From the IMG/VR virus record IMGVR_UViG_3300036826_000115, positions 1-52,037 of that record: 52,037 bases of DNA. One strand, 5' to 3'. Under the pieces are notes generated by a model. That model was not told the origin of the DNA. It saw nothing but the letters and a program-made list of their open reading frames with translations, and searched no databases. The stretch's first letter is position 1. Each line of letters starts with the position of its first letter. Of this stretch, positions 25,064 through 46,460 are shown piece after piece. The stretch comes from a virus. A program made the translations under genes and the position numbers.

Positions 25064-25135
25064 TGGACGGAACGGGATTCGAACCCGTATCCCCAGCGAT
25101 GCAGGCCGGGTGTCCTACCGTTAGACGATCCGCCC
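25064..25135 (-). tRNA. tRNA-Cys(GCA), unusual identity elements
   Basis: 72 nt, no encoded CCA. Acceptor GGGCGGA/TCCGTCC, D arm GTCT...AGGAC, anticodon stem CCGGC/GCTGG around CTGCATC (U33, anticodon GCA), and T arm ACGGG-TTCGAAT-CCCGT. Oddities: an extra base between D and anticodon stems, U37 where A is nearly universal, A73 where tRNA-Cys normally needs U73, and a G3-U70 pair, the main alanine identity element. Reading UGC (Ala) would need C33 and a broken stem. The fold is sound, but the charged amino acid is uncertain. Confidence 0.8.
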
Positions 25136-27895: not shown

Positions 27896-27967
27896 GACCC
27901 CCGACGGGACTCGAACCCGCATTTCCACGGATAACGGCGCAGCGTCCTACCATTAGACGACGGGGGC
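27896..27967 (-). tRNA. tRNA-like gene, anticodon uncertain
   Basis: 72 nt. Acceptor GCCCCCG/CGGGGGT (G1-U72 at the end), C73, D arm GTCT...AGGAC, T arm GCGGG-TTCGAGT-CCCGT. The anticodon stem pairs best as CTGCG/CGTGG, which leaves an eight-base loop CCGTTATC. With A37 placed normally the anticodon is GTT (Asn) but position 33 is C. A seven-base loop would break the stem. So either this is a decayed tRNA or one with an expanded loop, as in frameshift-suppressor tRNAs. Confidence 0.6.
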
Positions 27968-34778: not shown

Positions 34779-35065
34779 CGCCGGTCCATCGCTTCCTGGA
34801 CCTCGCGGCTGTGCAGGTCGATCACCGTTACCGCCATCTCGGCCGGTTGGTCCGGCATCGGCTCACGCTTGGCCTCGTACTCCATCGTCGCCTCGTAGCG
34901 ACCGTCCTGAACGCCCGCGTTGTACGCGAGGTCGTGGCCGATGTTGATGAGCCGGACGATGACGCCGTTGTCAGCGTCCCAGCCCTCGGGGAGCGTCTCG
35001 AAGTCGAGCAGCTCCGCCTGGGCCTTCTCGTAGAGCTTGTCCCAGAAGCCTTCTTCGGTGCTCAC
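34775..35065 (-). CDS. Hypothetical 96-residue protein
   Basis: GTG start overlapping the upstream stop (GTGA). VSTEEGFWDKLYEKAQAELL, then LINIGHDLAYNAGVQDGRYE and an acidic end. Helical. A longer frame to 35209 would lie inside the neighbour. Confidence 0.65.
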   Translation of the reverse strand: MSTEEGFWDKLYEKAQAELLDFETLPEGWDADNGVIVRLINIGHDLAYNAGVQDGRYEATMEYEAKREPMPDQPAEMAVTVIDLHSREVQEAMDRR

Positions 35066-35301
35066 GGGAGGATCTCCTGGAGAGCCTTGATGGCCTCCGT
35101 CAGTGTCCCGAAGCGACGTGGCAGCTCGACGATGAGCGCGATGTTCCACTTCTCGTCGTCGTCCCACGACAGGAGATACTGATTCCCCTTCTCGTCTTCG
35201 GTGATCCACGTCTCCTGGCTCAGCCGCCAGAGTTGCTGTCCCTCGACCACCCGGGACTTGTGTTGTCCGGGCTCGATATAGGCGATACCTTCACTCGCCA
35301 T
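35062..35301 (-). CDS. Hypothetical 79-residue protein
   Basis: MASEGIAYIEPGQHKSRVVE after CTAGGAGGTGTGAA. Beta-rich then helical, with ITEDEKGNQYLLSWDDDEKW. Headed by the first AAUCCC hairpin, 25 bases before the ATG. Confidence 0.7.
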   Translation of the reverse strand: MASEGIAYIEPGQHKSRVVEGQQLWRLSQETWITEDEKGNQYLLSWDDDEKWNIALIVELPRRFGTLTEAIKALQEILP

Positions 35302-35326
35302 TTCACACCTCCTAGATGTGCGTGCT

Positions 35327-35344
35327 CCGCTCGGGATTGAGCGG
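35327..35344 (-). ncRNA. AAUCCC-loop leader hairpin 1
   Basis: Minus-sense RNA CCGCUC-AAUCCC-GAGCGG: six base pairs with a six-base loop, 25 bases before the ATG at 35301. A GC hairpin (GGGGAC/GTCCCC) lies just upstream. The loop is shared with three other leaders. Confidence 0.65.
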
Positions 35345-35392
35345 GCGCAGGAGGGGACGGGGAAGTGTCCCCAGCCCGCGTCCGATCAAGTC

Positions 35393-35692
35393 CTAACTCG
35401 GAATGCGTCCCAACGGACGCTTGCTGCGATGGCGGCTATCGTCACGTCCCTGGGCCTCACCGAGGTCCGTGGCCGATAGTATCTGGCCGATGCGCAGCGT
35501 CTGCGTCCCCGCTTCGGGACGCAAGCTGAACTGCAACTCCCGGAGGGCTATCGCCTGTCCGGGGTACTGCGGGAACTTCGACGCACCGAGGTACGTCATC
35601 GTGGCCTCGTAGCGATACCACGATCCGTTCCCGCTCTGGAGCTTGTACTCCAGACGGTAGACGTGATGCGGTTGGAGCGTGATCTTGCTCAC
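35393..35692 (-). CDS. Hypothetical 99-residue protein
   Basis: MSKITLQPHHVYRLEYKLQS, a beta-rich domain (SWYRYEATMTYLGASKFP) and a basic C terminus. Overlaps the upstream gene's stop by four bases. Unknown. Confidence 0.65.
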   Translation of the reverse strand: MSKITLQPHHVYRLEYKLQSGNGSWYRYEATMTYLGASKFPQYPGQAIALRELQFSLRPEAGTQTLRIGQILSATDLGEAQGRDDSRHRSKRPLGRIPS

Positions 35693-36138
35693 TGCAACTT
35701 GCTCCTCAGCCAGTGTTCGCCGATCGCGACAACGTCCATCGCGTCAGTCCTGGCATCTGAGCCCAACTGCTCCGAGGTAGTGGACTCCTTCATGTAGATG
35801 GCCCACTCGTCCTCCTCGCGTATCACCTGGACCCAATACTGACCGGCTCTGCCGATCATGGTCTGAGCCCCGCCCTCGAAGCGGTACTCCCACACGACGG
35901 GGCTCTTCGGCTCCATGAAGTACGCGATATCCTCCACGTACGTCTCGGGGTCGGCCCCGTCCGGGTATGTCCCAAAGTCTCCATTGTCGTGAAGGAAGGC
36001 ACCGTCCATCTTCAACTGTGCCTTGCCGAACGCTTGGACGACCTCGAACTCGACCTCGTCGGGTTCCGGATGGTCTTGCGGGTGGAGTAGATCGTGGCCC
36101 AGACTGCATATCTGAGCCTCGTTCAGTGTTACTTTCAA
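35689..36138 (-). CDS. Hypothetical 149-residue protein, TTG start
   Basis: TTG at 36138 with GGAGGGCCG directly before it. LKVTLNEAQICSLGHDLLHP, then FMEPKSPVVWEYRFEGGAQT and WVQVIREEDEWAIYM: acidic alpha/beta. An ATG-type longer frame upstream would cross element C and was rejected. Confidence 0.7.
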   Translation of the reverse strand: MKVTLNEAQICSLGHDLLHPQDHPEPDEVEFEVVQAFGKAQLKMDGAFLHDNGDFGTYPDGADPETYVEDIAYFMEPKSPVVWEYRFEGGAQTMIGRAGQYWVQVIREEDEWAIYMKESTTSEQLGSDARTDAMDVVAIGEHWLRSKLQ

Positions 36139-36185
36139 CGGCCCTCCTTTGAGCCGACTTGGGGACCTGCGGCCCCCACATGAAC

Positions 36186-36221
36186 AGCGTACCGCGTGAC
36201 GTGGTCGGGTGTTTCGGCCGA
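36186..36221 (-). promoter_or_regulatory. Conserved early element C (TCGGCCGA type)
   Basis: Minus strand TCGGCCGA (36221-36214), AACACCCGACC, GTCACGCGG and -10-like TACGCT (36191-36186). The run GTCA(C/G)GCGG-TACGCT is the same as in element A and nearly the same as CTCACGCGG-TATAAT at 38.95 kb, which makes the -10 assignment credible. Confidence 0.6.
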
Positions 36222-36230
36222 CGCACGCTG

Positions 36231-36536
36231 TCAGCACACAGGATCGTCGGGGAACGCGGCGCAGAAGCGCTCCTTCCCGTTGAGCCTGAGAGCCTTGTCA
36301 CGTAGACGCATCACCTCGCGGACTTTCGCCCAGCTTGATTCCTCATTCGGGTCGTAGTCCGTCTCGGCCTTCTCGGCCTGACGCTTCCACTCCGTCACCT
36401 GCTCCTGCGTCTCACGCTTCTCCTGCGCACGATAGGCGGGATCGGTGTAGGTCGTCGGCTCCGGTTTCTCGGCGGCACCGCAGGCCGGGAGCACGAGGCT
36501 CCCAGCCGCGAGGCTGACGATCAGCCACTTCCGCAT
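36231..36536 (-). CDS. Lipoprotein
   Basis: 101 residues. MRKWLIVSLAAGSLVLPACG is a lipoprotein signal peptide with lipobox L-P-A-C, so C19 would be lipidated and the protein anchored outside the membrane. The rest is helical and charged (EQVTEWKRQAEKAETDYDPN) with a Cys pair at the end (FCAAFPDDPVC). Phage lipoproteins made early often block superinfection, which would be a fair guess. Coupled to the upstream gene by TGATG. Confidence 0.75.
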   Translation of the reverse strand: MRKWLIVSLAAGSLVLPACGAAEKPEPTTYTDPAYRAQEKRETQEQVTEWKRQAEKAETDYDPNEESSWAKVREVMRLRDKALRLNGKERFCAAFPDDPVC

Positions 36537-36871
36537 CAGTACGCCTCGGGGACGTCATCCATGCGGACGGTCCAGCCGCGCTGATTCAGGTAGGCGGCCA
36601 TCCGGTCGTCAGACCAGAGACCGCTCGGCTGCTCCTGCTCGATCTCGGTAGTGATCTTCACCAGCGTCCCGTCCAGGTTGAACTCCAGCGAGTCGGGCTC
36701 GCCGAAGTCGTCGCCGAGGGCGTTCGCCACGACCTCCATCAGCGCGTTCAGCGCGGGCTTGTCGCCCGAGCCGAGCTCCACGTCACCGACGACCTGGCGG
36801 CGGACAACCTGCACGATCCCACTCGGCGGTGGGGTCGCGATCGTCTTCCCGTCGTTCTTCCTAGTTGCCAT
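36536..36871 (-). CDS. Hypothetical 111-residue protein
   Basis: MATRKNDGKTIATPPPSGIV, then LNALMEVVANALGDDFGEPD, beta strands (LEFNLDGTLVKITTEIE). Headed by AAUCCC hairpin 2, ATG after CAAAGGAGAGTCACGC. Unknown function. Confidence 0.7.
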   Translation of the reverse strand: MATRKNDGKTIATPPPSGIVQVVRRQVVGDVELGSGDKPALNALMEVVANALGDDFGEPDSLEFNLDGTLVKITTEIEQEQPSGLWSDDRMAAYLNQRGWTVRMDDVPEAY

Positions 36872-36895
36872 GCGTGACTCTCCTTTGAGTCGCTT

Positions 36896-36915
36896 CCTGC
36901 TCGGGATTGAACAGG
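36896..36915 (-). ncRNA. AAUCCC-loop leader hairpin 2
   Basis: Minus-sense RNA CCUGUUC-AAUCCC-GAGCAGG: seven pairs including a U-G that exists only on this strand's transcript (the other strand would give C-A). 24 bases before the ATG at 36871. A second hairpin (GGGAGTG/CACTCCC) lies just upstream. Confidence 0.65.
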
Positions 36916-36959
36916 CGCATGAGGGAGTGTCGCCACTCCCCCCGCGTCTGTCACCCGAG

Positions 36960-37229
36960 TTACTTCCCGGCCTTCTTCACCTCGATGACCGCTGCGGCTG
37001 GGATGTCGCCTGCGAAGTAGCAGACGTTGTCGTCGATCCATCCGAGCGCCCGGTCGTCGAAGCCGATGGTGTGGAGCGCCTCGCTCAGTTGCAAGCGGAG
37101 CGTCTCCTTGGAGTGGACGAGAGCTCCGGCCAGGAGCGCGTCGTACTTGGTCTTGTCCAGACCCTCGGTCGGACCATCGTGCTCGATCTGCACGACCGCC
37201 TCGATCTTGATCAGTACCTCGAGAGCCAT
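36960..37229 (-). CDS. Hypothetical 89-residue protein
   Basis: Start at 37229 overlapping the upstream stop (TGATG). MALEVLIKIEAVVQIEHDGP, then GWIDDNVCYFAGDIPAAAVI. Mixed alpha/beta. A longer reading to 37388 lies inside the neighbour. Confidence 0.65.
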   Translation of the reverse strand: MALEVLIKIEAVVQIEHDGPTEGLDKTKYDALLAGALVHSKETLRLQLSEALHTIGFDDRALGWIDDNVCYFAGDIPAAAVIEVKKAGK

Positions 37230-37522
37230 CACCAACCCTCCGGACCCATCGTCTGGTAGGCGGCGTCGGCCTCGCGCATGAACGCCTCGGCCCGCTTCTT
37301 CGCCTCGGTGAGACAGCGAGCGCGTCCCGAGTTGTAGACCTCGGGCCACTCGCTGCGCTTCCCGGTCGTCTTGACGGACCAGAACCACGGCTCATCCGGG
37401 TTCTGGTCGGCGTCCAGCGTGGGTGCGACCTCGGCATAGATGCCGTTCAGGTCGGCCTCCCACATGTGAGGGATGTTCCACACGTCCCCCACGTCGTTCC
37501 ATGTGATTCCTCCAGAGTCCAT
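37229..37522 (-). CDS. Hypothetical 97-residue protein
   Basis: ATG at 37522 after GAAAGGAGTCTT. MDSGGITWNDVGDVWNIPHM, WFWSVKTTGKRSEWPEVYNS, then a helix (AKKRAEAFMREADAAY). Tryptophan-rich and compact. Unknown. Confidence 0.7.
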   Translation of the reverse strand: MDSGGITWNDVGDVWNIPHMWEADLNGIYAEVAPTLDADQNPDEPWFWSVKTTGKRSEWPEVYNSGRARCLTEAKKRAEAFMREADAAYQTMGPEGW

Positions 37523-37570
37523 AAGACTCCTTTCTCGTGTGGCGCTCCTTCTCATAGAGCGCTCTCGCAA

Positions 37571-37636
37571 GTGGATGGGCATCCATCACCCATCCACAAG
37601 CGGCAGAGCTCATGGAGAGAAGTCCGCAAATTGCGG
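37571..37636. repeat. Leader with a 9-bp hairpin and a palindrome related to 19.5 kb
   Basis: GTGGATGGG (37571-37579) pairs with CCCATCCAC (37589-37597). CCGCAAATTGCGG at 37624-37636 shares the GCAA-ATT-GCGG core with the perfect inverted repeat at 19512-19538. The whole 190-base gap before the gene at 37522 has no reading frame of note. Confidence 0.5.
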
Positions 37637-37712
37637 ATCACTCGCATAGCATCACGTGCCGACCAGGAGGGAGCGAGGCGTTGCACTCACTCCCTCCCGA
37701 CCGGCGTGTGTC

Positions 37713-38498
37713 CTACTCCTCGCCCTGCTCAGCCTCCGGGGTCTCGGTGGTCTTGGCGACCTGCGCCTCCACCTCGTCCACGATGGCCTGGACGTCGCTG
37801 CCCTCCTTGGCGAGCTCCTCCTTCTCGGCGTCGGTGGGCTCGTCGGTCTGCGCGGCCTCCGCCTCGGCGGCCTTCGCGGCGTCGGCGGCGGCCTTCTCCT
37901 CCGCCTCCTTGGCCTCCTTGGCCTCCTTGGCGGCCTTCTCCTCGGCCGCCTTGGTCTCGGCCTCGGCGATGGCGGCGATGCTCTCCTCGTAGCTCTCGCT
38001 GATGAGGAGCGCGGCGGCCACGACGCCCTTCAGCCACATGTGCGACTTGGGGACGCTGGAGCCGTGGCCCGAGTTGTCCTTCCACTCGTTCCACATGGCG
38101 ATGTAGGTCTCGTCCACGTCCTTGGCCTTCTCGCCGAGGGCGCTCTTGCCCTGCTTGGCGATCTTGGCCAGCATCTCCGCGTCGTACTCGCCGAGCACGT
38201 CGGCGATGAGCGGGTGGCTCATGACGTCCTCCAGGGTCTCCGCGACCTCGCCCGTCTCCGGGTCGGTCTTGAAGAACTCCAGGTACGAGGCCATCTGGCT
38301 GCGCGAGATCTTGTCCTTGCCCAAGACCTTCTCCTTGTGATCCTTCAGGAGCAGGTCCTCGATGGTCGGGATGCCGACCATCTCGGGCGTGGACTGGGTC
38401 GTCGTCTCCTGCGTCTCCGTGCCCTCCGGGACCTCCACCGTGTCGGTGGCGACGGTCTCGTCGGTGCTGCGGAGCACGTTGAGGTTGACGTTGAACAT
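37713..38498 (-). CDS. Early protein related to the one at 39600, Ala/Glu-rich
   Basis: 261 residues from ATG at 38498 after AGGAGGGTCAAC. The middle (about 70-180) holds DKISRSQMASYLEFF, AKQGKSALGEKAKDVDETYI, AMWNEWKDN and VPKSHMWLKGVVAAALLI, each with a counterpart in the protein at 39600-39890. The C-terminal third is an Ala/Glu/Lys coiled coil (EEKAAKEAKEAKEAEEKAAA). High GC in the coil makes long opposite-strand frames that are only shadows. Function unknown; its long structured leader suggests high or regulated expression. Confidence 0.75.
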   Translation of the reverse strand: MFNVNLNVLRSTDETVATDTVEVPEGTETQETTTQSTPEMVGIPTIEDLLLKDHKEKVLGKDKISRSQMASYLEFFKTDPETGEVAETLEDVMSHPLIADVLGEYDAEMLAKIAKQGKSALGEKAKDVDETYIAMWNEWKDNSGHGSSVPKSHMWLKGVVAAALLISESYEESIAAIAEAETKAAEEKAAKEAKEAKEAEEKAAADAAKAAEAEAAQTDEPTDAEKEELAKEGSDVQAIVDEVEAQVAKTTETPEAEQGEE

Positions 38499-38568
38499 GT
38501 TGACCCTCCTATGGGTCTCGTCCCTCGCAAACAGAAAGCCCATCCGGGGCTTCTGTTTTGAGCGAAGC

Positions 38569-38586
38569 GAGCGCGGGATTGCGCTC
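38569..38586 (-). ncRNA. AAUCCC-loop leader hairpin 3
   Basis: Minus-sense RNA GAGCGC-AAUCCC-GCGCUC, six perfect pairs, 70 bases before the ATG at 38498. An additional hairpin (ACAGAAGCCC.../GGGCTTTCTGT at about 38530-38555) lies between it and the ribosome site. Its 5' strand also takes part in a longer 14-bp stem upstream. Confidence 0.65.
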
Positions 38587-38624
38587 CGTAGCGACGCGGA
38601 CTGTTCCACATCGCTACGGAGCGC
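38581..38624 (-). repeat. Perfect 14-bp inverted repeat overlapping hairpin 3
   Basis: GCGCTCCGTAGCGA (38581-38594) and TCGCTACGGAGCGC (38611-38624), 16 bases apart. The arm nearest the gene contains the six bases that form the 5' side of hairpin 3, so both cannot form at once. CCCGAG/CTCGGG (38624-38641) makes a further hairpin next to it. Confidence 0.75.
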
Positions 38625-38677
38625 CCGAGGTCTCCCTCGGGCACCCCAACGAGAACATAGTAGGAATCACGCACGAT

Positions 38678-38815
38678 CTAGGTTCCTCTACACGAGAGCT
38701 CAAGCCTTCGCTCGTTCGGCGGCGCACACTTCCTCCGCTTCCCGTACACGTAGCTCTTCACCGTCGTGTAGCGCGGGATGAATTGCCGACATTCAGGGGT
38801 CTTAGGCGTATCCAC
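38678..38815 (-). CDS. Basic 45-residue protein, start uncertain
   Basis: From GTG at 38815: VDTPKTPECRQFIPRYTTVK, then SYVYGKRRKCAPPNERRLEL. The frame stays open upstream to just behind a good AAAGGAGAG (about 38900), and reads SPEDDGTRRSGS before the GTG. No standard start lies between, so the true start may be non-canonical. Two Cys and many Lys/Arg suggest nucleic acid or metal binding. Confidence 0.4.
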   Translation of the reverse strand: MDTPKTPECRQFIPRYTTVKSYVYGKRRKCAPPNERRLELSCRGT

Positions 38816-38952
38816 GCTGCCCGAGCGCCGGGTCCCGTCATCCTCGGGACTGACTATGTGATGTTGATGTTGATTGCCGGTTGGCGACTCTCCTTTGAGC
38901 CTGTGGCAATGAGGCGTGAGCGCTTGCGACCCAGGGGCCGCCGCGCAGACGA

Positions 38953-38984
38953 ATTATACCGCGTGAGCGCGCATCACACCACAA
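38953..38984 (-). promoter_or_regulatory. Minus-strand promoter with perfect -10
   Basis: CTCACGCGG-TATAAT, with TATAAT at 38958-38953. A -35-like TTGTGG stands 20 bases upstream, longer than usual. The CACGCGG part matches elements A and C. It would transcribe the small basic gene and the gene at 38498. Confidence 0.6.
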
Positions 38985-39094
38985 TTGATGGGTCCACAAC
39001 ATTCGCACAACTCGGTTGTTCAGGTGCTCCTTTCCTGGGTTGACATACGCTGACGTCGGGGCATCGCACGCTCCGGCGTCTGCGTATGGCTGAC

Positions 39095-39421
39095 CTAGAT
39101 GTAGATGGGCTTGGCTCCGTCCGCGATGGCGCGGGCGAGGTCGGGACGGATGGAGTCCAGGCCGTCCCAGGAGAGATCTGCGTACTCCTTGGGGACCTGG
39201 ATGATGGGACGCCGGAGCAGCTTGTCGCACAGCTCCTCGGCGCTGGACGCCTTCGGCTTGATGAGATTCCGCGTGTAGAAGGCCAGATCCTGGTCCTCCT
39301 CACGGATGATCTTCACCAGACGCGCCATCCGCTCGTCCAGCTTCCGCTGGGCGTTGGCGATCGCCACCGTCTCGTAGATATAGGCGTCCCGTCCGGTCTG
39401 GCCGGTCGGGGTGGTGAACAT
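39095..39421 (-). CDS. Hypothetical 108-residue protein
   Basis: ATG after TTAGGAGACTC. MFTTPTGQTGRDAYIYETVA, then helical (NAQRKLDERMARLVKIIREE). The ribosome site overlaps the stop of the frame that follows the 96-residue gene, so the junction is tight. Function unknown. Confidence 0.7.
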   Translation of the reverse strand: MFTTPTGQTGRDAYIYETVAIANAQRKLDERMARLVKIIREEDQDLAFYTRNLIKPKASSAEELCDKLLRRPIIQVPKEYADLSWDGLDSIRPDLARAIADGAKPIYI

Positions 39422-39428
39422 GAGTCTC

Positions 39429-39602
39429 CTAACGGATCCGACGGATCCAGTTGATGTGCAGTCCAGGGCCGATGGGCTCTCGGATGATGATGGTCAGCAT
39501 CTGCTGGTCTTTCTTGGTCGTTGTCGTGGGGTCTTCCCACCCTCGCGCACGCTCTGTGTCGTACGCGGGGGTGAGGGGGGCCGGAGCCCCCCGACCCGAC
39601 TA
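39429..39602 (-). other. Possible amber readthrough extension of the upstream gene
   Basis: After the TAG at 39602-39600 the same frame continues for 56 sense codons to a second TAG at 39431-39429. It reads SGRGAPAPLTPAYDTERARG, WEDPTTTTKKDQQMLTIIIR, then EPIGPGLHINWIRRIR. This looks like protein, has no ATG before codon 35, and ends in the ribosome site of the next gene. A hairpin GGGGGG-CTCCGG-CCCCCC begins seven bases after the stop. Either readthrough, a 23-residue ORF from 39500, or noncoding. Confidence 0.4.
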
Positions 39603-39890
39603 GGCGCCGAGGGCGACGCTGACCGCGCCCTTGCTCCACATGTGGGACTTGGGCGGCGCGACCTCGAGGGTCGCGGCCCAGGCGTTCCACGCCGCGACGA
39701 ACGCGGTGTCCAGGTCCTTGCCGTTGGCCAGCGCGGACCAGCCGCTCTTGGCCATGATCAGCCGCTCGCTGATGCTGATGCGCGCCAGCCAGGACAGTCC
39801 CTGGGTGGAGGCGAGGAAGCCCTCCAGCGAGGCGCGCTGCTTCGCGCTGATCTTGTTGTTCCGGCCCATGACGAAAGCCGTGGTCTGCAT
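39600..39890 (-). CDS. 96-residue early protein related to the one at 37713
   Basis: ATG at 39890 after CAAAGGAGACTCATC. MQTTAFVMGRNNKISAKQRA, SLEGFLAST, then AKSGWSALANGKDLDTAFVA, AWNAW and PPKSHMWSKGAVSVALGA. Same order of motifs as residues 70-180 of the 261-residue protein. So this is the short, single-domain form of that family. Its leader carries AAUCCC hairpin 4. Confidence 0.75.
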   Translation of the reverse strand: MQTTAFVMGRNNKISAKQRASLEGFLASTQGLSWLARISISERLIMAKSGWSALANGKDLDTAFVAAWNAWAATLEVAPPKSHMWSKGAVSVALGA

Positions 39891-39915
39891 GATGAGTCTC
39901 CTTTGACTCTTGTTC

Positions 39916-39933
39916 GGATGCGGGATTGCACCC
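39916..39933 (-). ncRNA. AAUCCC-loop leader hairpin 4
   Basis: Minus-sense RNA GGGUGC-AAUCCC-GCAUCC: six pairs, one a G-U that on the opposite transcript would be an A-C mismatch. 25 bases before the ATG at 39890. Further upstream GTGGGGGGG/CCCCCCCGC forms a strong GC hairpin. Confidence 0.65.
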
Positions 39934-39993
39934 CCGGCGCGGTCCGTTCGGTTCACGGGCCGCCTCGGGGGTGGGGGGGTCACCCCCCCGCAC

Positions 39994-40245
39994 TCACACC
40001 AGGTACTTGTAGCGAGTCGAGCCGCCAATCGACAAGGGGTCGCGGCTGGGCGCGTCGACCTTCGCGTGTTCGAGGCATCGGTGCACGTTGCCGGGTCGAC
40101 TCACCAGGGCCGCTCGACCGCACGTGTCGCCAACGGGCACCATTCGCTTGGTCGAGCGGTACCTCGTGCCATCGAGCGGTGGCGTTCGAGTCACGGGTAC
40201 CCAGGTTGTCGTGTGTCGGTAATTACAGCGTTGGTCGTGTACCAC
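39994..40245 (-). CDS. Small zinc-binding-like basic protein
   Basis: 83 residues, GTG start after GAAAGGTACCTG. It reads RYRSTKRMVPVGDTCGRAAL, then VSRPGNVHRCLEHAKVDAPS. Cys, His, Cys and His (C-x(n)-H-x-C-x2-H) could hold zinc. Amino acid use looks natural; the opposite-strand frame is a shadow. Confidence 0.55.
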   Translation of the reverse strand: MVHDQRCNYRHTTTWVPVTRTPPLDGTRYRSTKRMVPVGDTCGRAALVSRPGNVHRCLEHAKVDAPSRDPLSIGGSTRYKYLV

Positions 40246-40458
40246 CAGGTACCTTTCGATAGGGGTCGAGGTGGGCGGCGCGCCCCCTGTGGGCGGCCCC
40301 CCGGCCCCCCGTGTGGGGGGCCTTGCTGCCTTGCACTACTATTATCGACTATTCGACGCCCCGCCGCCACCAGCTTCGCTGCGGCAGAGCGCCTGTTTGC
40401 CCTTGAGAGCTGACCTAGGACCGGGATGGACATAAGCCCCCAGCCGATAGAGAAGAAG

Positions 40459-40502
40459 TGTCACTCCGAACGTACTACTTTAGAGTGCCTTCCGGAGTGA
40501 CA
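40459..40502. repeat. 10-bp inverted repeat
   Basis: TGTCACTCCG (40459-40468) and CGGAGTGACA (40493-40502), 24 bases between. A third, near-matching copy (TCACTCCGG) is at about 40988, so this could be a protein-binding iteron and not only a hairpin. Confidence 0.6.
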
Positions 40503-41004
40503 GGCTCTCAACAGCGCTAGAGAGCAGGCCAGGAGTTCAGGGCTCACAGTGCCGGACCTGACGTAGACGTAGAGAGCAGCGCCCAGGGCGACGCTACCGA
40601 TGAGAGAAGAGAGAGATCTAGACATACCCCGATAGTCGGCAGGTCGGAGCCGGACTGTAGGGACGAGAGAAACTGCTCCCCCCCACCGGGATTTAGAGGA
40701 ATCCCCGTCCTTACATGCTTCGCCTTACTGGCTCTGACCCAGATCGAACGTTGCTGAGGATGTGGGATGAGAGGGCAGGGACCTAGTGACGACTCGGTCC
40801 CAGTCCCCCAGGGCTCTCCACCCTAGATCCCCCACATCGCCTGGCGAGCGCAACGTTGGCACGACGACCGCGACGTCTACGGGCACTTCTGTTACCGAAA
40901 TGCGTAATCCCGGCTGAGTGGCCGGGATGAGTGGTACTCTTGGAGGTATCACAACGCATAGCTCCCGGAGCATAACGCATAGCAACGTCACTCCGGGGGC
41001 GTGT

Positions 41005-41039
41005 CTCAGCCCCGGAAGCCTCCGAGCCCCGGGGCTGAG
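41005..41039. terminator. 11-bp hairpin after the 42.7-41.1 kb operon
   Basis: CTCAGCCCCGG (41005-41015) and CCGGGGCTGAG (41029-41039), 13-base loop. It stands 43 bases after the last stop of the minus-strand operon. On the minus strand no T tract follows, so it may work as a barrier or a factor-assisted terminator. Confidence 0.5.
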
Positions 41040-41081
41040 CCGTCTTTAGGAAGATCGGTATTTCGGAACTGACCCTGTGAT

Positions 41082-41231
41082 CTACAGGGGTTTTGCCCTT
41101 TCGGGCAAACATTCTCGGATACACGTCTTACAGACGAAACGATCGGGTGTGTCGCCGCCGAAGCACACTCTCCAGAACGCCGTCCCGCAGCAGTCGCTCG
41201 ACAGGAACGCCGACGTGTAGAGCATCGTCAT
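41082..41231 (-). CDS. 49-residue Cys-rich protein
   Basis: ATG overlaps the upstream stop (ATGA at 41228-41231). MTMLYTSAFLSSDCCGTAFW, then RFVCKTCIRECLPERAKPL. CC and CxxCxxxC could bind zinc. Pairs with the zinc-ribbon gene before it. Confidence 0.65.
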   Translation of the reverse strand: MTMLYTSAFLSSDCCGTAFWRVCFGGDTPDRFVCKTCIRECLPERAKPL

Positions 41232-42903: not shown

Positions 42904-43545
42904 ATGGCCGTCCCTCTCCAAGAACTGGTCACACATCCGGGGAACCCGCGACGCGGTTCCATCGACACCATCAAGCAGTCGCTGGAGCGATTCGGTCAGG
43001 TGAGACCGATCGTGGTACACGAGGGCGATGGCGTGATCCTGGCCGGGAATCACACGTTCCTGGCCGCGAGCGAGCTCGGCTGGGACAAGATCGCCGTGGT
43101 GATGGTCGATCTCCCCGAGGACGAGGCTACCGCCTACATGCTGATGGACAATCGCAGTGGGGACATGGCGACCTGGGATGACGTGGGGCTGGCCGAGGTC
43201 CTCGCCGATCTCCACTCCAAGGACATGCTCGACGCCACCGGCTTCACGCTCGACGATCTGGAGGACTTGCAGGCCGCGCTGGATCAGGTCGCGCTCACGG
43301 AGCCCGAGGAGTTCACGGGTGACTACACCGAGACCATCGAGGAGACCGCCGAGCGCTGGAAAGATCACAACGAGGGTGCGAATCGGGAGATCGTCATGCT
43401 CCTCCCGCACGACGATTACGAGATCTTCATGGCGGCCGTCCGGGACCTGATGGCACAGTATGAGGAGACGAGTCAGACGCGCATGATCTTCAAGGCTGTC
43501 ACCGAGTGGGCGGTGTTTCTCAAGGGGCAGGCCGCTCATGGCTGA
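42904..43545 (+). CDS. ParB/sulfiredoxin-fold protein of the DNA-modification cassette
   Basis: 213 residues from the ATG at 42904 (GAGGGC before it), reading MAVPLQELVTHPGNPRRGSI. Upstream ATG (42880) and GTG (42862) starts are possible, but TATGAT at 42878-42883 looks like a -10. The N-terminal domain has the ParB pattern (H-P-x-N-P-R-x-G/D, then FGQVRPIVV, then GVILAGNHTFLAASELGW). ParB-fold proteins of this kind often stand next to phage DNA-modification enzymes and may act as nucleases or NTPases. No HTH of plasmid ParB is present. Overlaps the glycosyltransferase by eight bases. Confidence 0.8.
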   Translation: MAVPLQELVTHPGNPRRGSIDTIKQSLERFGQVRPIVVHEGDGVILAGNHTFLAASELGWDKIAVVMVDLPEDEATAYMLMDNRSGDMATWDDVGLAEVLADLHSKDMLDATGFTLDDLEDLQAALDQVALTEPEEFTGDYTETIEETAERWKDHNEGANREIVMLLPHDDYEIFMAAVRDLMAQYEETSQTRMIFKAVTEWAVFLKGQAAHG

Positions 43546-44320
43546 TACGTGGCCGCACTTCGCGATCCCGTCCTATCATCGTGCACTCATCTGTCAGGAG
43601 CGTACCCTCGCCACGCTAGAGGAGATGGAGGTTCCGAGGGAGAAGATCACGCTGTTCGTATCCGATCCGGACGAGTACATCTTCTACAAGAACGCCTGCG
43701 ATCCCCAGCGCTACGGGAAGATCGTCGTCGCCGAGAAGGGCATGGGAGCAGTGCGACGCTTCATCGCGCACTACTACCCGGAGGGGATGCGCGTCGTCAA
43801 CGTGGATGATGACATCAGCGGCTTCTACATCAAGCGTGACGACAAGCGCTACGATCCGATGACGCCGCACGAGTTCCACGGGATGGTGAAGATGGGCTTC
43901 TGGGCGTGTCAGGAGGCGGGCTGTCGGCTGTGGGGGATCTATCCCGTCCTCAACGCGCTGTTCATGAAGCGACGCGTCCGCGTGGGCCTCACCTACATCG
44001 TCGGTGCGTTCTGGGGCGTGATCAACAGCCAGGAGCGCGAGCTCCAGGTCACCCTCGACGACAAGGAGGATTTCGAGCGCACGATCAAGTTCTTCCAGGC
44101 CGACGGGGCCGTCGTTCGGTTGGAGGCGTACAGCCTCAAGACGTCCTACTACAACACACCCGGTGGGATGCAGATCGATCGCACGCCGGAACGGATCGAC
44201 GCCTCTGCCCGTGAGTTGGTGCGACGTTATCCGCTCCTGGCTAAGCTCAACTTGACCAAGGCGTCCGGGCACACGGAGGTCCGGCTGGTGGATCCCAAGG
44301 GACGGAAGGTGCTGACATGA
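43538..44320 (+). CDS. Glycosyltransferase 1, TET-associated type (GT-A fold)
   Basis: 260 residues. HFAIPSYHRALICQERTLAT at the N terminus and MRVVNVDDDISGFYIKR with D90-D92 are the nucleotide-sugar site of GT-A enzymes. FWACQEAGCRLWGIYPVLNA and GAFWGVINSQERELQVTLDD, EDFERTIKFFQADGAVVRLE are typical of the family that glycosylates hydroxymethylated bases in phages with TET/JBP enzymes. It should add a sugar to 5-hydroxymethylcytosine. The stop overlaps the dioxygenase start (ATGA). Confidence 0.8.
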   Translation: MADTWPHFAIPSYHRALICQERTLATLEEMEVPREKITLFVSDPDEYIFYKNACDPQRYGKIVVAEKGMGAVRRFIAHYYPEGMRVVNVDDDISGFYIKRDDKRYDPMTPHEFHGMVKMGFWACQEAGCRLWGIYPVLNALFMKRRVRVGLTYIVGAFWGVINSQERELQVTLDDKEDFERTIKFFQADGAVVRLEAYSLKTSYYNTPGGMQIDRTPERIDASARELVRRYPLLAKLNLTKASGHTEVRLVDPKGRKVLT

Positions 44321-45198
44321 TCGAGGCACGGCTGCGGACCAAGATCACCCAACAGGAGTTGGACCAGAAAGTGGGTAAGGTCCTGACTCCGAATGATGTG
44401 AACTTGATGCTGGCCGGACCCTCCCGCATCTTGCTCCCATCCGGCCAGCCATTGTGTATCTACCTGCCGGGTGCGCTCCGCAAACAGATGGACGAGGTGT
44501 GGTCCGTCCTCCAGACGATCAAGATGCCCACCGACAATCGGGGTCTCGCCTCGGGCACGCAACGGGTCAACGCGGGCGGCAACCGGAGCCGGACGATGCC
44601 GGTCCTCAGTGGGATCATGGGCTCGATGGACGCCGGGCCGGGGCGAGGATACTGTCGTTTGACGACGTACACGAGGGAGAACGTGGAGAAGTGGGCCGCG
44701 ATGGTTCCGTTCCTGCGTCACATCGCCGACAAGTTCCACACCTACGTACCCGAACGCTTCTCGAACCAGCACCGGATCGCCCTCCAAACCTCACCCGAAT
44801 GGGTTGTTCCCGGGACACCCTTTACCACGATCACGGTCAACAACAGCTACAGCACTGGTGTCCACAAGGACAAGGGCGACCTGGACGAGGGGTTCTCCTG
44901 CCTCGTCGTGGGACGTGCCGGTTCCTACACCGGAGGGTGGCTCTGCTTCCCAGAGTATCGCGTCGGGGTAGACATGCAGCACGGTGATCTTCTCCTCATG
45001 GACGCACATCAGTGGCATGGGAACACGCAGATGACATGCTCTTGCGGCAATATTCTGTCCCAACGGCCCTGTAAGCTCTGTGGAGGTGAACGAGTTTCCG
45101 TCGTTTGCTACTACCGAACCAAGATGGTGCGATGCGGGACCAGAGAACAAGAGAACCAGAAGCGCGTAGTCGCGTCAGAGGCGAGGGCCGGTGTCTGA
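44317..45198 (+). CDS. TET/JBP-family 2-oxoglutarate/Fe(II) dioxygenase
   Basis: 293 residues. It should hydroxylate the 5-methyl group of 5-methylcytosine (or thymine) in DNA. TTITVNNSYSTGVHKDKGDL gives the iron ligands H183 and D185. DLLLMDAHQWHGNTQM gives the second His (231 or 234). SVVCYYR gives the 2-oxoglutarate Arg (267, less likely 259). The helical N terminus and double-stranded beta-helix spacing fit TET/JBP proteins. Unusual: CSCGNILSQRPCKLCGG (241-257), a CxC/CxxC zinc ribbon, between the second His and the Arg. Placed between ParB-glycosyltransferase and terminase genes. Confidence 0.88.
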   Translation: MIEARLRTKITQQELDQKVGKVLTPNDVNLMLAGPSRILLPSGQPLCIYLPGALRKQMDEVWSVLQTIKMPTDNRGLASGTQRVNAGGNRSRTMPVLSGIMGSMDAGPGRGYCRLTTYTRENVEKWAAMVPFLRHIADKFHTYVPERFSNQHRIALQTSPEWVVPGTPFTTITVNNSYSTGVHKDKGDLDEGFSCLVVGRAGSYTGGWLCFPEYRVGVDMQHGDLLLMDAHQWHGNTQMTCSCGNILSQRPCKLCGGERVSVVCYYRTKMVRCGTREQENQKRVVASEARAGV

Positions 45199-45766
45199 TC
45201 ACAACGGAGTATTTCGCCCGGAAGCCGACGCACATCAAGGGCCAGATGAAGCTGTTCACGCCGAAGAAGAAGAGCGCCTCGGGCACCGTCGCGAGGTAGC
45301 CCGACGTACTCGCGGCGGGATCATCGAGCGCGCCAAGCGACGTAATCGCGTGCTAGAACTGCGCGCCGCCGGGCTGACGGAGGCGCAGATCGCCGAGCAG
45401 TTGTCCATGTCCCAGTCCAACGTCAGCCGCAGCATCCAGCGGGCGTTGACCAAGTGGGCCGAGCAGGACGCGCAGAACGTCGAACAGGTACGGGCGATGA
45501 AGCTGTTCGAGCTGGATCAACTCAAGCGCGCTATCTGGGCGAGGGCGTTGAAGGGTGATCTCAACGCCGTGCGCGAGGCGGCCAAGATCATCGGGATGCA
45601 GTCGCGTATCGCGGGTGCCGACAGCCCGGTGAAGATCGAGCGGCACACGACCGTCGAGGTCGGCATCGACACCGCTGAGATTGATCGCATGGAGTCGGCG
45701 TGGCTGGCGAGCGGCGGTGACGTGATCGACGGGACAGCGATAGACGATGATCCGGACGTTCGGTAA
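45191..45766 (+). CDS. Helix-turn-helix protein, terminase small subunit candidate
   Basis: 191 residues from GTG at 45191. A charged N terminus is followed by ELRAAGLTEAQIAEQLSMSQ, SNVSRSIQRALTKW, an HTH of the sigma-70-4/transposase type. The C-terminal half is helical (MKLFELDQLKRAIWARALKG). Upstream of the large terminase, this pattern fits a small terminase subunit. A second frame (45105-45299) overlaps the start region but is probably a shadow. The gap to terL by the second glycosyltransferase is unusual. Confidence 0.6.
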   Translation: MSDHNGVFRPEADAHQGPDEAVHAEEEERLGHRREVARRTRGGIIERAKRRNRVLELRAAGLTEAQIAEQLSMSQSNVSRSIQRALTKWAEQDAQNVEQVRAMKLFELDQLKRAIWARALKGDLNAVREAAKIIGMQSRIAGADSPVKIERHTTVEVGIDTAEIDRMESAWLASGGDVIDGTAIDDDPDVR

Positions 45767-46460
45767 TCACAAGCTCTACGTCGTGGTCTTGTCCACACAG
45801 CGTCCGCAGAACGTGGCGATGATGACCATGAAGATCGGCTCCGCGACATGGTGCGTCCCTCGGGGCGAGGTGGACGCATATCGCAGCGAGGGGGCGAAGC
45901 ACTTCATCACCGATGGTGGCGGCAATGTCGCGTCGGCGCGCAACGTCGCACTCCATCACGCTCGCAAGCTCAAGCTCCCATGTCTTCAGATGGACGATGA
46001 TCTCATCAGTATGAAACTCGCCAACGACGGTCGGGCGCGACCTATCCGGTTCCCCGCTGCCGCCGTTCTCATGGCGAATCTATTGGAGGCCACACCCTTC
46101 AAGCTCGCGGCCTCCAACATCGTGACCAACGCGATCTACGTGAAGCATCCGGTCACACAGAACAAGACGATCAACGGCGGGATGTTGCTCATCCTCCCCA
46201 CCAAGCTCTCCTTCGATCCGGAGCAACAGGTTAGCGAGGACATCGACTACGCACTCCGTCATCACGAGGTCTACGGCGGCTACCTCCGTATCGACTGTCT
46301 GATGACCGCCTTCCGTCATCGGCAAGCTGGCGGTGTCCAGGTGTACCGTGATCGTGAATGGGATCGTCGCGGCACCGAGATGCTAAAGCGGAAGTGGGGC
46401 GACAAGGTGCGCGACCGACAGTCGAAAGACAATCCCTACCACGTCCTCGTGAACTTGTGA
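45747..46460 (+). CDS. Glycosyltransferase 2, TET-associated type (GT-A fold)
   Basis: 237 residues. YVVVLSTQRPQNVAMMTMKI, GGGNVASARNVALHHARKLK and LPCLQMDDDLISMK with D83-D85 give the GT-A nucleotide and metal sites. KTINGGMLLILPTKLSFDPE and QQVSEDIDYALRHHEVYGGY follow as in base-modifying glycosyltransferases. It shares fold signature but little sequence with glycosyltransferase 1, so it may add a second sugar or another linkage. It starts 20 bases before the small-subunit stop. Confidence 0.75.
   Translation: MIRTFGNHKLYVVVLSTQRPQNVAMMTMKIGSATWCVPRGEVDAYRSEGAKHFITDGGGNVASARNVALHHARKLKLPCLQMDDDLISMKLANDGRARPIRFPAAAVLMANLLEATPFKLAASNIVTNAIYVKHPVTQNKTINGGMLLILPTKLSFDPEQQVSEDIDYALRHHEVYGGYLRIDCLMTAFRHRQAGGVQVYRDREWDRRGTEMLKRKWGDKVRDRQSKDNPYHVLVNL

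Follow-up and report, generated by a model that had tools for sequence, protein, structure and literature searches.

Hairpins with an AAUCCC loop ahead of phage genes: an apparently unrecorded RNA signal for translation control

Four gene leaders on the minus strand of the virus record IMGVR_UViG_3300036826_000115 carry hairpins that hold the same six-base loop, AAUCCC, on stems of different sequence. The stretch analysed, hereafter the window, is this 52 kb record (positions 1 to 52,037; G+C 0.62). There is little doubt that the hairpins belong to a recurrent leader element selected at the level of RNA, and from their sequences they look like a previously unrecorded signal for phage translation control. 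The element is well supported, its mechanism less so. Tentatively, it may act on translation initiation via a conserved reader of the loop.

The AAUCCC hairpin in the window and in other phages

The coordinates, stems and loop of the four hairpins (A to D, Table 1) match exactly those described in an earlier, sequence-only reading of this DNA. All four have the same loop and the same closing C-G pair; every other stem position varies while all remain paired, two of them as G-U. That three of the hairpins lie 24-25 nucleotides (nt) before an ATG is borne out by the distances in Table 1, and the further GC-rich hairpin that had been placed upstream of each is present in all four leaders. Leaders C and D are alike in sequence. 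None of the four hairpins is followed by the T run of an intrinsic terminator.

The hexamer itself (GGGATT/AATCCC) is not enriched in the window, with 19 occurrences observed vs 21.6 expected. A stem of at least 6 base pairs (bp) can form at four of these 19 sites and 0-3 bp at the remaining 15, so no AATCCC hexaloop hairpin of the window other than A to D reaches a 6-bp stem. The minus strand has 192 hexaloop hairpins in all, and AATCCC was their commonest loop (four cases; next commonest, two). A single dinucleotide shuffle in 1,500 contained any loop four times, and the AATCCC hairpin never appeared more than once per shuffle. When the four leaders were shuffled 20,000 times, no hexaloop common to three of them arose, so that the AAUCCC-stem combination was not reproduced. 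A covariance model built with outside examples scored hairpins A to D at 25-28 bits and the next candidate in the window at 13.8 bits.

The element also occurs beyond this genome. A search of 50 records with the model found 12 hits, on one strand and within 8 kb, in IMGVR_UViG_3300047160_001700 (39 kb, G+C about 0.51; hereafter G041). Direct reading of G041 revealed 14 leaders of one common design: a UGAUUGCAAG box on or close to the stop codon of the preceding gene, a perfectly paired hairpin of variable sequence, the AAUCCC hairpin, a Shine-Dalgarno hairpin and the ATG. The upstream hairpins have 12 different perfect stems, often with UACG, UUCG or GAAA loops. The AAUCCC hairpin, CG(A/U)GC-AAUCCC-GC(U/A)CG, keeps its stem intact in all 14 leaders, with a compensatory change at one pair (A-U in eight leaders, U-A in six), and its loop reads AAUCCA and AAUCCU in two of the 14 copies. 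The Shine-Dalgarno hairpin, NNGCC-UAGGAG-GGCNN, is found in 13 leaders (one with GGUC..GGCC), and its outer pairs co-vary. The earlier proposal of an RNA family is thus upheld by about 14 further copies with covarying stems, including a clean A-U/U-A change, in an unrelated phage.

In another phage, G054 (48 kb), the AAUCCC hairpin occurs four times on stems of 6-10 bp, in two cases directly before a start; given the composition of G054, four copies with a stem of at least 5 bp would not be unusual. For both G041 and G054, the best matches point to phages of proteobacteria. No protein similarity among the window, G041 and G054 was detected by tblastn at 1e-4, a search that a fast-evolving phage protein could evade; the leader layout common to the window and G041 is shared without detectable protein homology.

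IMG/VR was scanned for GC-AATCCC-GC upstream of AGGAG and ATG, and distinct hits were counted; the figures from IMG/VR are rates among the matches listed, not totals. A stem of at least 5 bp was present in 39 of 95 distinct hits (41%) and one of at least 6 bp in 23 of 95. The corresponding counts were 7 of 86 (8%) and 3 of 86 with the reverse-complement loop in the same frame, and 10 of 97 (10%) and 5 of 97 with other loops at the same loci. The difference between AATCCC and its reverse complement (p = 3e-7; p = 5e-5 once homologues were merged by hand) is a contrast in coding-strand orientation, and supports selection at the RNA level. Selection on minus transcripts, which had been offered as the simplest explanation of the window hairpins, thus agrees with their strand specificity, with the divergence of their stems under retained pairing, and with their position upstream of starts.

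The 47 hairpins of this IMG/VR set stand before genes of 36 different protein families; an endolysin, head proteins and ParB-like proteins are among the named matches of the downstream genes. GTDB bacterial genomes gave an intermediate hairpin rate (23 of 117 among the matches listed), at least one of these hits (L432) matching a viral locus (L144). A first IMG/VR scan, made with the window's own Shine-Dalgarno sequence, returned mostly chance hits (stem of at least 5 bp in 2 of 34).

Five related phage contigs (L054, L077, L127, L132 and L166) have in common AATGCAGC-AATCCC-GCTG(C/T)(G/A)TT. This hairpin is separated by only 10 nt from the ATG that starts a small MFKFEM.. protein, with the Shine-Dalgarno sequence directly after the stem. 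An arrangement of a TGATTNCAGC box, a hairpin and then GGTGC-AATCCC-GCACC recurs identically in contigs L026, L067, L090 and L116; their downstream genes belong to two different families, and the next gene in L026 resembles an inovirus major coat protein.

Leader architecture and folding

The unit is bigger than a single hairpin. A short hairpin with the Shine-Dalgarno sequence in its loop is present in all four AAUCCC leaders vs 2 of 23 other minus-strand AGGAG starts (Fisher p = 0.0009). On its other side, the 5' arm of the AAUCCC hairpin is abutted or overlapped by a GC-rich hairpin, and in leaders A, B and C the two overlap or are in competition. The sequence-only reading had noted neither this competition nor the Shine-Dalgarno hairpins. 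In leader B the long upstream hairpin and hairpin B compete because the 3' end of the former is the 5' arm of the latter. A kissing interaction between the AAUCCC and Shine-Dalgarno loops was considered and rejected, as it would comprise just 3 bp (UCC with GGA) and leave the remaining loop bases unexplained.

Two other hairpins on the minus strand of the window hold a Shine-Dalgarno sequence in the loop and are not accompanied by an AAUCCC hairpin: CGGCTC AAAGGA GGGCCG at 36139-36156, before a TTG start, and GGCTC AAAGGA GAGTC at 38886-38901, with no obvious open reading frame downstream. Both are preceded by a CACGCGGTA motif (GTCACGCGGTACGCTGTT near 36200 and CTCACGCGGTATAATTCG near 38960, respectively), possibly a promoter.

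Table 1. Leader elements of the window and the genes that follow them.
Feature	Position	Strand	Description
AAUCCC hairpin A	39916..39933	-	GGGTGC/AATCCC/GCATCC, one G-U; 25 nt to ATG 39890
AAUCCC hairpin B	38569..38586	-	GAGCGC/AATCCC/GCGCTC; 70 nt to ATG 38498
AAUCCC hairpin C	36896..36915	-	CCTGTTC/AATCCC/GAGCAGG, one G-U; 24 nt to ATG 36871
AAUCCC hairpin D	35327..35344	-	CCGCTC/AATCCC/GAGCGG; 25 nt to ATG 35301
Shine-Dalgarno hairpin, leader A	39894..39909	-	GAGTC AAAGGA GACTC
Shine-Dalgarno hairpin, leader B	38502..38517	-	GACCC ATAGGA GGGTC
Shine-Dalgarno hairpin, leader C	36876..36891	-	GACTC AAAGGA GAGTC
Shine-Dalgarno hairpin, leader D	35304..35320	-	CACATC TAGGA GGTGTG
Upstream GC hairpins, leader A	39930..39989	-	two, at 39973-39989 and 39930-39972, the latter sharing bases with the 5' arm of hairpin A
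Upstream strand, leader A	39990..40000	-	GGTGTGAGTGC, which differs at one base from GGTGTGATTGC of L026; pairing with the region of hairpin A possible
Long upstream hairpin, leader B	38581..38624	-	about 20 bp
Upstream GC hairpin, leader C	36916..36946	-	CTCGGG just upstream can pair with CCCGAG of hairpin C
Upstream GC hairpin, leader D	35346..35380	-	predicted fold
Gene after leader A	39603..39890	-	96 residues; no known family
Gene after leader B	37716..38498	-	261 residues; no PHROG match
Gene after leader C	36539..36871	-	111 residues; no PHROG match
Gene after leader D	35065..35301	-	79 residues; no PHROG match

Proposed function and rival explanations

We tentatively favor a cis-acting 5'-leader RNA module of phage genes that would work at translation initiation. 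The core of this module would be the hairpin with the invariant C(AAUCCC)G loop, flanked on one side by a stable upstream hairpin and on the other by the ribosome-binding site; in the window phage and in G041, the Shine-Dalgarno sequence itself occupies the loop of an additional hairpin. Together, the hairpins may fold the leader into a compact unit that is insulated from the variable surrounding genes and in which the Shine-Dalgarno loop stays displayed. A conserved host factor, most likely from the apparatus of translation or mRNA turnover, would then read the AAUCCC loop, and the genes that bear the module would be translated or stabilised together. That the window, G041 and G054 share no detectable protein argues for a host-encoded reader. 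That the loop can pair with a GAUU box in G041 and related small contigs suggests that the module may alternate between an open form, with the loop exposed, and a closed one. The fullest form of this proposal is doubtful: a portable three-hairpin ribosome-entry module with a conserved bacterial reader, an AAUCCC recognition loop and a GAUU-box switch, spanning phages without detectable shared proteins, probably different host phyla, and both inovirus-like and tailed phages.

Several results weigh against the favored proposal. The predicted pair probability of the local AAUCCC hairpin is 0.01, 0.00, 0.02 and 0.69 in leaders A to D, respectively, and it is also low in several G041 leaders. Energy minimisation favors the upstream structures over the AAUCCC stem in A, B and C, and the loop can pair upstream, which makes the simple picture of a hairpin as binding site incomplete. 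The AAUCCC hairpin may thus either need a partner for folding or be one of two alternative forms. The RNA-level family is real and may serve as a protein-binding site, a translation enhancer or a switch, as had been suggested; the local hairpin is not the predicted ground state in A to C. In addition, the TC-AATCCC-GA closing of leaders C and D shows no excess in other viruses (10 of 88 among the matches listed), AAUCCC leader hairpins were rare in a control of about 1.1 Mb of unselected phage DNA (two homologous cases), and no RNA-binding family was found among the 35 window proteins scanned. The limited reach of tblastn, mentioned above, counts on the same side.

The main rival, which is possible, is a bistable switch or an H-type pseudoknot in which a GAUU box located upstream base-pairs with the loop's AAUC, so that the first hairpin is enclosed. 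This pairing may compete with the AAUCCC stem or may form together with it as a pseudoknot, and the sequence is compatible with both. A box UGAUUNCA, whose GAUU complements AAUC of the loop, is located upstream of the module in G041 and some small virus contigs. In about 10 of the 14 G041 leaders the box GAUUG[C/U] is complementary to GCAAUC (5' arm plus loop), and it usually starts at the TGA stop. Outside G041, TGATTNCA stands upstream of 4 of 64 hairpins vs none of 211 stemless controls (p = 0.003). Its carriers, with the box before the upstream hairpin, are L026 (GTGATTGCAG; a small contig with the coat-like gene), L090 (GTGATTTCAG), L116 (GTGATTCCAG) and L067 (ATGATTCCAG). Matches to the full pattern TGATTNCA..GCAATCCNGC in host chromosomes (345 and 348 genomes, families of Xanthomonas and Pseudomonas genomes) were scattered and looked like chance. 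Because the box often directly follows the upstream stop codon, ribosomes ending the upstream gene could block box pairing and so couple the two genes.

Predicted folds are consistent with such a switch. In minimum-energy folds, box-loop pairing encloses the upstream hairpin in most G041 leaders and in L026, and in window leaders A, C and D a strand from upstream is likewise paired to the AAUCCC region; for the G041 and window leaders this holds in at least one of the folding windows. However, the GAUU box is not conserved in the window leaders, where pairing uses other registers with mismatches or bulges, and the per-leader complementarity in G041 beats shuffled targets only sometimes. The switch would also leave the retention of the last loop bases, CC, unexplained, and no link was seen between the two forms and Shine-Dalgarno access.

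It is unlikely that the loop is the binding site of a phage-encoded translational repressor or activator, similar to the T4 gp43/RegA operators, with each phage having its own reader. The many copies over one block of small genes (four in the window, about 14 in G041) are regulon-like, and T4 provides precedents for leader operators (PMC3014915). Against such a reader stand the absence of a protein shared among the three carrier phages at tblastn 1e-4 and the result of the window protein scan, and the same loop in inovirus-like contigs and tailed phages would require convergence. An mRNA processing or protection element, in which tandem hairpins mark a cut site or shield ends and a host nuclease reads the loop, is more improbable still. 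It would agree with AAUCCC copies in intergenic gaps, often from a few to about 40 nt past a stop codon, with the UNCG or GNRA loops frequent among the G041 upstream hairpins, and with the copy that precedes the inovirus coat-like gene in L026; on the other hand, a T run follows only a few of the copies, which are thus no intrinsic terminators. Finally, the idea that these are common leader hairpins of no specific function, their loop recurring by local duplication and chance, is very hard to sustain: leader hairpins are frequent in phages in general, leaders C and D are alike, and the genes after A and B are related by a shared segment, but stems have diverged while pairing and loop were retained, 14 copies exist in the unrelated G041, and the shuffles and the orientation control contradict it.

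Genomic context and comparison with known systems

The terminase, portal and tape measure proteins of the window have only distant phage matches (portal and terminase about 23-28% identity, tape measure about 21-25%). Portal matches are mostly to Streptomyces phages, from which an actinobacterial host might be guessed. No relative close enough for leader alignment was found by DNA search of GenBank phages, and neither tblastn of the small proteins against GenBank phages nor exact-peptide scans of IMG/VR found a close relative of the window phage. The genes after leaders A and B have a common C-terminal segment (46% over 52 residues). Long gaps without convincing genes separate small open reading frames on the minus strand at 38499-39095 and about 39907-41100, and the former (38.5-39.1 kb) contains a 20-bp hairpin, a terminator-like hairpin (AAACAGAAGCCC..GGGCTTTCTGTTT) and TATAAT. 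Rfam matches indicate two tRNA genes (25064-25135 and 27896-27967, minus). The plus strand carries a likely DNA hypermodification cluster (43538-46460), comprising a TET-associated glycosyltransferase (43538-44320), a Tet_JBP oxygenase domain match, probably at 44317-45198, and a glucosyltransferase-like gene (45747-46460).

Rfam (4,227 models) yielded no credible match over the window leaders, where only sub-threshold chance matches occurred, nor in L561, L026, L116, L090 or L067. Mu-gpT-DE (RF03012) was absent from the window at E-values up to 1 for the whole window and up to 5 in 35250-40050. A likeness to this family exists elsewhere, since L115 matches it at 59.6 bits, above the gathering cut-off, and has an inner hairpin loop AAUCCC shortly before the Shine-Dalgarno sequence; in contrast, the family consensus loop is AUuguG and its outer stem extends into CAGG of the Shine-Dalgarno region. 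Among the papers listed in searches for such loops or for Shine-Dalgarno hairpins in phages, none described a leader loop AAUCCC. Two other identities were rejected. N4-type hairpin promoters have a loop of three bases, whereas the loop here has six, and the window has no open reading frame for a giant virion RNA polymerase (the longest, 1,123 residues, encodes the tape measure). The resemblance of TTCAATCCC in leader C to a tRNA T-arm does not hold, as its flanks form no T-stem and leaders A and B lack TTC.

The gene 43 operator hairpin and the gene 32 leader pseudoknot of T4/RB69 are autoregulatory leader sites (PMC3014915). Similar to the AAUCCC leaders, they form structured RNA ahead of the ribosome-binding site, keep certain loop letters conserved and serve translational control. 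However, they are bound by the product of their own gene, have another loop and lack the tandem module, which makes them a parallel in principle only. The dyads found in cluster EG Microbacterium phages, which as a rule lie 14-22 bp ahead of a start codon (PMC7302621), and the 17-bp dyads of cluster O mycobacteriophages (PMC6439249) are likewise short inverted repeats in many copies. Their arms are fixed around a two-base centre (EG: GATCAACCNNGGTTGATC), as in DNA sites, whereas in the window the arms vary and the centre is fixed.

Closest in function are the Start-Associated Sequences (SAS) and ESAS, known from mycobacteriophages of cluster K and Microbacterium phages of cluster EF (PMC3203893; PMC7302621). 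SAS occurs in many copies per genome, at or just before the starts of non-structural genes, and about half of the cluster K copies have an upstream inverted repeat (PMC3203893; PMC7302621). This ESAS consists of two imperfect inverted repeats of 17 bp that precede SAS, for whose hairpins the cluster K authors found little support (PMC3203893). In the 13-bp SAS motif, GGGATAGGAGCCC or GGGAAAGGACCCC, one may see a Shine-Dalgarno sequence in a GGG..CCC loop, similar to the third hairpin of the leaders described here, a reading that is ours and not that of those papers. One SAS copy of Mycobacterium phage Pixie (L575), CGGATAGGAGCCG, has a paired double change, CGG..CCG, and two other copies are unpaired (GGG..CCA and TTG..CCC). 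The window elements are at gene starts, as SAS is, and the genes downstream have no PHROG match. The differences are that SAS arms are fixed, that ESAS spacers are variable and that neither is described with an AAUCCC loop. Window leaders carry GAGTCAAAGGAGACTC, GACCCATAGGAGGGTC, GACTCAAAGGAGAGTC and CACATCTAGGAGGTGTG rather than the SAS motif, and their upstream hairpins differ in sequence in all four leaders, with no common 17-bp ESAS-like repeat seen. The role of SAS, ESAS and dyads in phage leaders has been open since at least 2011. In this regard, the AAUCCC family provides a structural reading, in which the Shine-Dalgarno sequence sits in a hairpin loop with a fixed-loop hairpin upstream. 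If a host factor does read AAUCCC, this would be a post-transcriptional control point common to unrelated phages, and a useful expression part.

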